64,000 nucleotides of DNA, from positions 2,666,001 through 2,730,000 of the forward strand of contig NZ_CP043959.1 in the NCBI RefSeq assembly GCF_008632955.1, read 5' to 3'. Below are positions 11,344 to 12,163 of the stretch, piece by piece. The translations under genes and the position numbers were made by a program. The DNA is from Streptomyces tendae. Its GTDB lineage: Bacteria; Actinomycetota; Actinomycetes; Streptomycetales; Streptomycetaceae. Position 1 is the first letter of the stretch. Each line of letters begins with the position of its first letter. The notes under the pieces are model-generated. The model saw only the letters and a list, made by a program, of their open reading frames with translations, ran no database searches and was not told the DNA's origin.

Positions 11344-12060
11344 CTAGCGCAGCGCCGGGTGGTCCGCGACCACGGTGCACGACCCCGGGGCGATCTCCGT
11401 GAAGCCGGCGTCGCGCACCATGGGCAGGCCCCCGCCGGTCAGCGCGGGCCAGTCGGCCGGGTCGGCGGTGCGCACGGCGAGCGGGAAGCCGGCCGCGCGC
11501 CAGGCCTCACGGGCCGCGTCCGGCAGCTCCCACCAGGCCAGTTGGGCACCGTGACCGGCCTGGGCCATGGCCTTGCCGGCCGACATCCCAGCGCGGGTTC
11601 AGCCAGAGCGTGGGGACGCCGGGTCGGCCGGGGGCACCGGGTCCGGGTCGTCGAGGTCCGTGCCGGAGACCTGGAGACGGGCCAGGTCCTTCGGCCAGCC
11701 GTCCAGGGGGACCGGCGGGAAGACACGCACCTCGGCCGCCTTGCCGGTGACGGTGATCCCGGGAAGCGCCTCGGCGCGCCGCCACTCCGCGCCGCGCGCC
11801 CGGCGCACCACCTTGCGGATGCGGGCGTCCTGCCAGTCCCGCACCGCCCGGGCCCACTCGCCGTCGCCCACCGAGCGCTCGTCGGTCAGCATCACCAGGA
11901 CCGCGCGGGCGGCCGTCTCCAGGGCGTCCGTGCGGGCCGGCGGTGAGCCGCGCTCGATGCGGACCACCAGGGGCAGCACGAACTGGGGGGCCTCGTCACG
12001 GGAGCCCGGGTCGGGCCGGAAGGGGCTGTCGGGGTCGGGCGTCGTCCGGTCGTCGTTCAC
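11344..12060 (-). pseudogene. PTH2-type peptidyl-tRNA hydrolase, broken by two frameshifts
   Basis: Encodes the Streptomyces aminoacyl/peptidyl-tRNA hydrolase of the PTH2 kind in three frames. Frame one, from GTG 12060 (VNDDRTTPDPDSPF), covers the N-terminal domain to about 11630 and then meets a stop (PASPRSG). The next stretch, VPTLWLNPRWD (about 11590-11625), is read in a second frame. The catalytic stretch MSAGKAMAQAGHGAQLAWW to the end (ADHPALR) is in a third frame from 11586. One lost base near the DPG/VPT junction and two lost bases at the D-M junction (a GACATG-like sequence reduced to GATG) would explain it, and together they restore phase. The break is at the edge of the PTH2 domain. 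Either a real pseudogene or two sequencing errors about 35 nt apart; separate translation from ATG 11586 is possible. Confidence 0.82.
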
Positions 12061-12163
12061 CCGCCCAGTGTGCCAAGCCGGACGCCGGCCGTGACGGCCG
12101 GCTCGGTCAGACATCAAGGGGCGCCGAGCGGGCACGAGGGTGGGGGGAAGGGGCTGATGAGCG

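Follow-up and report, generated by a model that had tools for sequence, protein, structure and literature searches.

A break in the PTH2-type gene of Streptomyces tendae is probably a sequencing or assembly error and draws attention to a predicted tandem PTH2 protein

The gene described here occupies positions 11344-12063, on the minus strand, of the window, that is, of the whole stretch of 64,000 nucleotides of Streptomyces tendae DNA that was analysed (contig NZ_CP043959.1). It is a gene for a PTH2-type, peptidyl-tRNA hydrolase-like protein with an interrupted reading frame, and it comprises a first part, a last part, and a short stretch between them that is read out of frame (Table 1). When the first part was searched alone at E 1, it matched zero families of Pfam or NCBIfam, and its fold has been taken from an intact relative, L002. 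The last part matches the Pfam family PF01981 (PTH2) with E=2e-6 and 28.5 bits, above the cut-off of 23, and contains the motifs GKxxAQ and DAGxTE. Two NCBIfam Pth2 models also match it, both below their cut-offs. A six-frame PTH2 profile search of the window's genome gave no match at E 0.001; this search missed the short broken copy, and absence of the family is therefore not implied by it.

Table 1. Features of the interrupted PTH2-type gene, in positions of the window.
Feature	Position	Strand	Description
First part	11599..12063	(-)	GTG 12063 to TGA 11601-11599, 154 codons; N-terminal half (PTH2-like by structure only) and linker
Last part	11344..11586	(-)	80 residues from ATG 11586; PTH2 domain without its first strand
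Out-of-frame stretch VPTLWLNPRWD	11585..11617	(-)	From the sequence and relatives; strand 135-138 in the L002 model
TGA, sole stop inside the gene	11599..11601	(-)	From the sequence and tblastn
First one-base gap	11621..11623	(-)	Within a C run of the coding strand; against the four nearest relatives
Second one-base gap	11594..11597	(-)	Exact base within the range ambiguous; against the four nearest relatives
Third one-base gap	11586..11589	(-)	Exact position ambiguous; against the four nearest relatives
Inverted repeat, arm 1	11623..11631	(-)	9 bases, perfect, read by eye; paired in folds
Inverted repeat, arm 2	11576..11584	(-)	From the sequence and folds

The nearest relatives of the gene are those of S. 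griseoincarnatus, S. werraensis, S. albogriseolus, and S. pseudogriseolus, with DNA identities of 89 to 91%. In the best alignments to these four, about 38 bases contain three one-base gaps, the only ones in the gene; a single two-base gap in place of the second and third is possible. Because of the first gap, reading runs into the TGA. The three gaps sum to -3, and the first and last parts therefore lie in the same frame; tblastn crosses the whole gene in one frame with the single TGA. In the relatives, the segment equivalent to VPTLWLNPRWD is in frame and carries the strand with which the second half of the protein begins. A preliminary description of this DNA, made from its letters, had recognised a PTH2 gene broken at 11560-11640, with the readings PASPRSG-stop, VPTLWLNPRWD, and MSAGKAMAQAGHG. 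Place and readings agree with the sequence, the PTH2 identity is borne out by the match to PF01981 above its cut-off, and the net loss of three bases that had been proposed is found against the relatives. The two changes assumed in that description become three separate one-base gaps when the gene is best aligned with its four nearest relatives, and its three frames are reduced to two, since the sum of -3 returns the last part to the frame of the first. Nor do the frameshifts compensate in effect, as had been thought, because the TGA sits within the shifted stretch.

All three gaps are enclosed by a perfect 9-base inverted repeat, which could favour error or mutation alike. The fold around the repeat is no better than that of shuffled sequence (z 0.61 as DNA, -0.37 as RNA). 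Mutation guided by a hairpin was considered; the repeat is real, its folding is ordinary for the base composition, and its inner arms, compared by eye, are not exact copies, so that this mechanism was not relied on. At the equivalent place in L002, an inverted repeat of different letters was seen by eye.

The junction was compared in four sets of relatives, which overlap in genomes. It is open in all 29 relatives fetched from the 30 loci of the first search, the remaining locus being the window itself, in 29 of 29 other loci from a protein search of 392 Streptomyces genomes, in 80 of 80 named loci, and in 28 of 28 further loci from a class-level search. Alignment with orthologues, one of the checks proposed at the outset, thus found the relatives open across the junction. 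The protein was matched in 370 of the 392 Streptomyces genomes, the window's own included, and no match to it was found in the other 22. Among the Streptomyces matches listed, which are the better-scoring part, only the one in the window's genome has an internal stop. The class-level search gave one other row with a stop, in genome G444, where it precedes the conserved protein rather than falling at the junction. Of 246 genomes drawn from the class, the window's genus included, 53 had a match, and these belong to 15 of 103 genera. Set against these relatives, the break exceeds chance, and as a property of the window's assembly it is not exceptional.

The intact protein was modelled from L002 (L002:1502-2218) over 223 residues, using an alignment of 30 sequences including its own. 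The model has a pLDDT of 88.7 and a pTM of 0.89, and the order of elements strand, helix, helix, strand, helix, strand, strand occurs in it twice. The N-terminal half aligns to 1xty with a VIA-align Z of 12.4 (2.2 A over 104 residues, 12% identity) and to 1q7s with a Z of 11.8; the PTH2 fold was thus found on the intact relative, not on the window's broken gene. In Foldseek, Pth2 structures rank first for L002 but weakly, with a best E of 2.8e-3, and no row was obtained at E 0.001 or below. The N-terminal half has no Pfam match, either in the intact relatives or in the window. The C-terminal half of an intact relative matches the PF01981 profile at E 1e-7, intact relatives score 32.6 and 32.2 bits against this family, and by sequence the C-terminal half matches 1wn2 at E 1.5e-5, with its motifs aligned to that protein. 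GKxxAQ and DAGxTE, motifs with a catalytic role, occur in the C-terminal half only, and K148, Q152, D202, A203, G204, T206, and E207 are invariant in the 30 aligned relatives.

VIA gives one alignment per entry, and here these fell on the N-terminal half. Its C-terminal rows are unrelated folds with Z 2.0 to 2.4 and for this reason cannot speak against a PTH2 fold; the C-terminal fold therefore rests on the sequence match and the order of the elements. A profile comparison of the two halves placed them in register but weakly, with probabilities of 1.0 and 3.9%. Model and fold comparison together predict that the intact protein is a single chain with two PTH2-like halves, of which the second alone carries the motifs.

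Substitutions against S. griseoincarnatus number 5, 9, and 62 at codon positions 1, 2, and 3, and the third-position share of 0.82 (62/76) compares with 0.66 in intact genes of the region. By conservation, the gene also ranks in the top third of those compared. These figures point to purifying selection acting on it until very recently; the relaxed selection expected of a pseudogene was not found, in a comparison where a very young pseudogene would look the same. The preliminary description had also proposed a search for a second PTH gene, and one is present: an intact Pth1-type gene at G000:C1:6319231-6319794 matches PF01195 at E 7.8e-61 and contains no stop. Since Pth1 is intact, loss of the PTH2-type gene could be tolerated.

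The frequency of such lesions in the assembly was estimated by comparing the window's genome, gene by gene, with that of S. griseoincarnatus (G131) over the regions 2316001-2730000 and 3500001-3900000 of the former (G000). Genes were taken from a simple codon-usage gene caller of our own, and the rates depend on this caller and on the single reference genome. Genes with coverage under 80% or identity under 82% were dropped, so that 166 of 324 gene calls remained in region 1 and 269 of 334 in region 2. Gaps were not counted as isolated if they lay within 30 bases of an alignment end, or if an opposite gap or one longer than a single base occurred within 25 bases. The 435 genes retained cover 458,281 aligned bases. 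In the window's assembly they contain 55 isolated one-base deletions and a single insertion, and the lost base is G or C in 49 of the 55 cases. In the reciprocal comparison of 439 genes, G131 has 20 one-base insertions against 1 deletion, the window's assembly again being the shorter. Lesions of the same kind are in excess elsewhere in the assembly, and in one direction, as expected if they are assembly errors.

An early stop together with isolated one-base gaps is found in 22 of the 435 genes in the window's assembly and reciprocally in 1 of 439, where the ORF of the window's assembly is itself shifted. A looser count of early stops gives 6/166 and 24/269 genes in the window's assembly against 2/166 and 5/273 in the relative. 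It includes unclean cases (in region 1, one gene with a gap at the very start; in region 2, one without a gap and several with stops in the first codons), and the stricter count has therefore been relied on. In the six broken genes of region 1, all ten non-triplet gaps are one-base deletions. An earlier version based on codon usage had found breaks in 8 of 133 genes of the window's assembly and in 2 of 135 genes of the relative; some of these breaks were no more than stops near the gene end. A frameshift screen of all ORFs was dominated by antisense ORFs and was replaced.

Several genes hold 2 to 4 deletions, and 10 of 24 distances between neighbours within a gene are under 50 bases. Two of these ten are in the PTH2 gene; the short distances in further genes indicate that close spacing occurs elsewhere in the assembly too. 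In region 2, 17 of 43 deletions fall in runs of at least three equal bases, which make up 14% of background positions. Over both regions, 24 of the 55 lost bases lie outside any run, and the deletions are therefore not a plain homopolymer artefact. Across the tertiles of conservation the deletions number 10, 17, and 28, being commoner in less conserved genes, and so are not spread evenly regardless of conservation, as would be expected of errors. Pure random error would not lean in this way, and some of the 55 deletions may therefore be real. As a group, broken genes are somewhat more diverged than intact ones in region 1 (0.112 vs 0.081, with third-position shares of 0.60 vs 0.66) and in region 2 (0.102 vs 0.095, with 0.62 vs 0.65); the PTH2 gene, with its share of 0.82, does not follow this tendency. 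Ten broken genes of region 2 were scanned; seven had a family match, and none of these seven was recognisably essential by name. Within the 64 kb window itself, 47 genes were compared and isolated one-base deletions were found in the PTH2 gene only.

Two other places in the compared regions stand out, with gene products named by eye. The gene at G000:C1:2500533-2501256 resembles a secreted xylanase and has two one-base deletions and an early stop. Around G000:C1 2514000-2533000, several shifted genes are clustered and include a sugar nucleotidyltransferase-like gene and a polysaccharide chain-length-like gene; either the assembly is poor here or a polysaccharide cluster is decaying.

Comparable defects have been described in Streptomyces. 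According to the available part of one study, the differences between PacBio-only and short-read-corrected genomes are mostly single-base insertions in homopolymers (PMC6923854). Those long-read-only assemblies likewise come from high-GC Streptomyces and show frame-disturbing single-base differences, which, to judge from the wording of that part, were mostly settled by adding a base (PMC6923854). They differ from the present case in their homopolymer pattern, since 24 of the 55 gaps here lie outside runs of equal bases.

The break is thus best explained as a sequencing or assembly error, and the gene is very probably intact in the organism. Single bases, mostly G or C, would be missing from the consensus, three of them within about 38 bases where the second half of the protein begins. 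The product in the cell would then be the usual Streptomyces protein, about 239 residues long. We infer that the deletions are errors rather than mutations, and their source would be a long-read assembly without full correction, comprising 3 contigs and 7.3 Mb. Counted for this explanation were the one-way excess of deletions, the purifying selection on the gene, and the intact relatives. Counted against it were the lean across the tertiles, the greater divergence of broken genes, the deletions outside runs, the rating of the assembly as 99.99% complete, the position of the PTH2 gene as the only deletion-bearing gene of the 47 in the window, and the lack of any recognisably essential gene among the seven family-matched broken genes of region 2.

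Three choices had been named for this locus: recent pseudogenisation, assembly error, and unusual recoding. The set was the right one; error has gained support, pseudogenisation is possible but weak, and recoding is unsupported. In a real, very recent inactivation, three deletions would have arisen close together, perhaps helped by the hairpin, with Pth1 doing the essential work. The lesions do lie between the arms of the inverted repeat, but the hairpin is no stronger than that of shuffled sequence of equal make-up. The intact Pth1 gene and the Streptomyces genomes that lack a match to the protein would allow for such a loss, and the lean of the deletions to less conserved genes, together with the slightly greater divergence of broken genes as a group, suits it as well. 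The substitutions in the gene, however, show no relaxation, zero fetched relatives are broken at the junction, and further genes of the assembly carry like one-base deletions, with hardly any change in the opposite direction. Inactivation is on this balance unlikely.

The break falls at the linker between the two predicted halves and an ATG stands at the start of the second part, so that one might think of a functional split, with the N-terminal half and a second half from ATG 11586 pairing as two polypeptides. The first strand, residues 135-138 in the L002 model, would be missing from this second piece, the fusion is present in all fetched relatives, and the one-base-deletion pattern of the assembly applies here too; a split is very improbable. 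Even less credence can be given to recoding, in which the full protein would be obtained by frameshifting or by read-through of the TGA. The net change of -3 means that one read-through would restore the C-terminal frame, but the second half would still have its first strand replaced, and recoding is needed by none of the fetched relatives; it fails on these two points. A break conserved among relatives, as recoding would predict, was seen in 0 of the 29 relatives and 0 of the 80 named loci, no other stop occurs among the Streptomyces matches listed, and the stop in G444 is not at the junction.

The break matters mainly as a warning. Frameshifts in this assembly, with 22 of 435 aligned genes affected, should not be taken as pseudogenes or recoding without reads, and other apparent pseudogenes of the window's genome deserve equal doubt.

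The tandem PTH2 protein that emerged as a by-product is more interesting than the break. Pth2 acts as a dimer. Archaeal and human Pth2 proteins of PF01981 (e.g., 1wn2, 1q7s, 3erj, and 1xty) resemble the C-terminal half by sequence and the N-terminal half by fold. The available part of one report gives their length as 116-120 residues (PMC11202043), whereas the present protein is predicted to have two such halves per chain, and the first of them lacks the conserved motifs. Pth1 (PF01195), whose name refers to the same reaction, is encoded by a separate, intact gene in the window's genome. It is likely that the protein is a single-chain tandem PTH2 in which the N-terminal copy, a half without a Pfam family, has lost the motifs and is a built-in partner, perhaps for tRNA binding or in place of the second subunit of a Pth2 dimer, and residues of catalytic type are retained by the C-terminal copy. 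A pseudo-dimer of this kind, next to an ordinary Pth1, would be standard in nearly all Streptomyces and some related actinobacteria. No description of a tandem PTH2 was found in the literature on Streptomyces, actinobacterial, tandem, or structural Pth2, in which subscription papers were thinly covered. The finding raises the question of why a bacterium with Pth1 keeps an archaeal-type enzyme with a built-in second fold.
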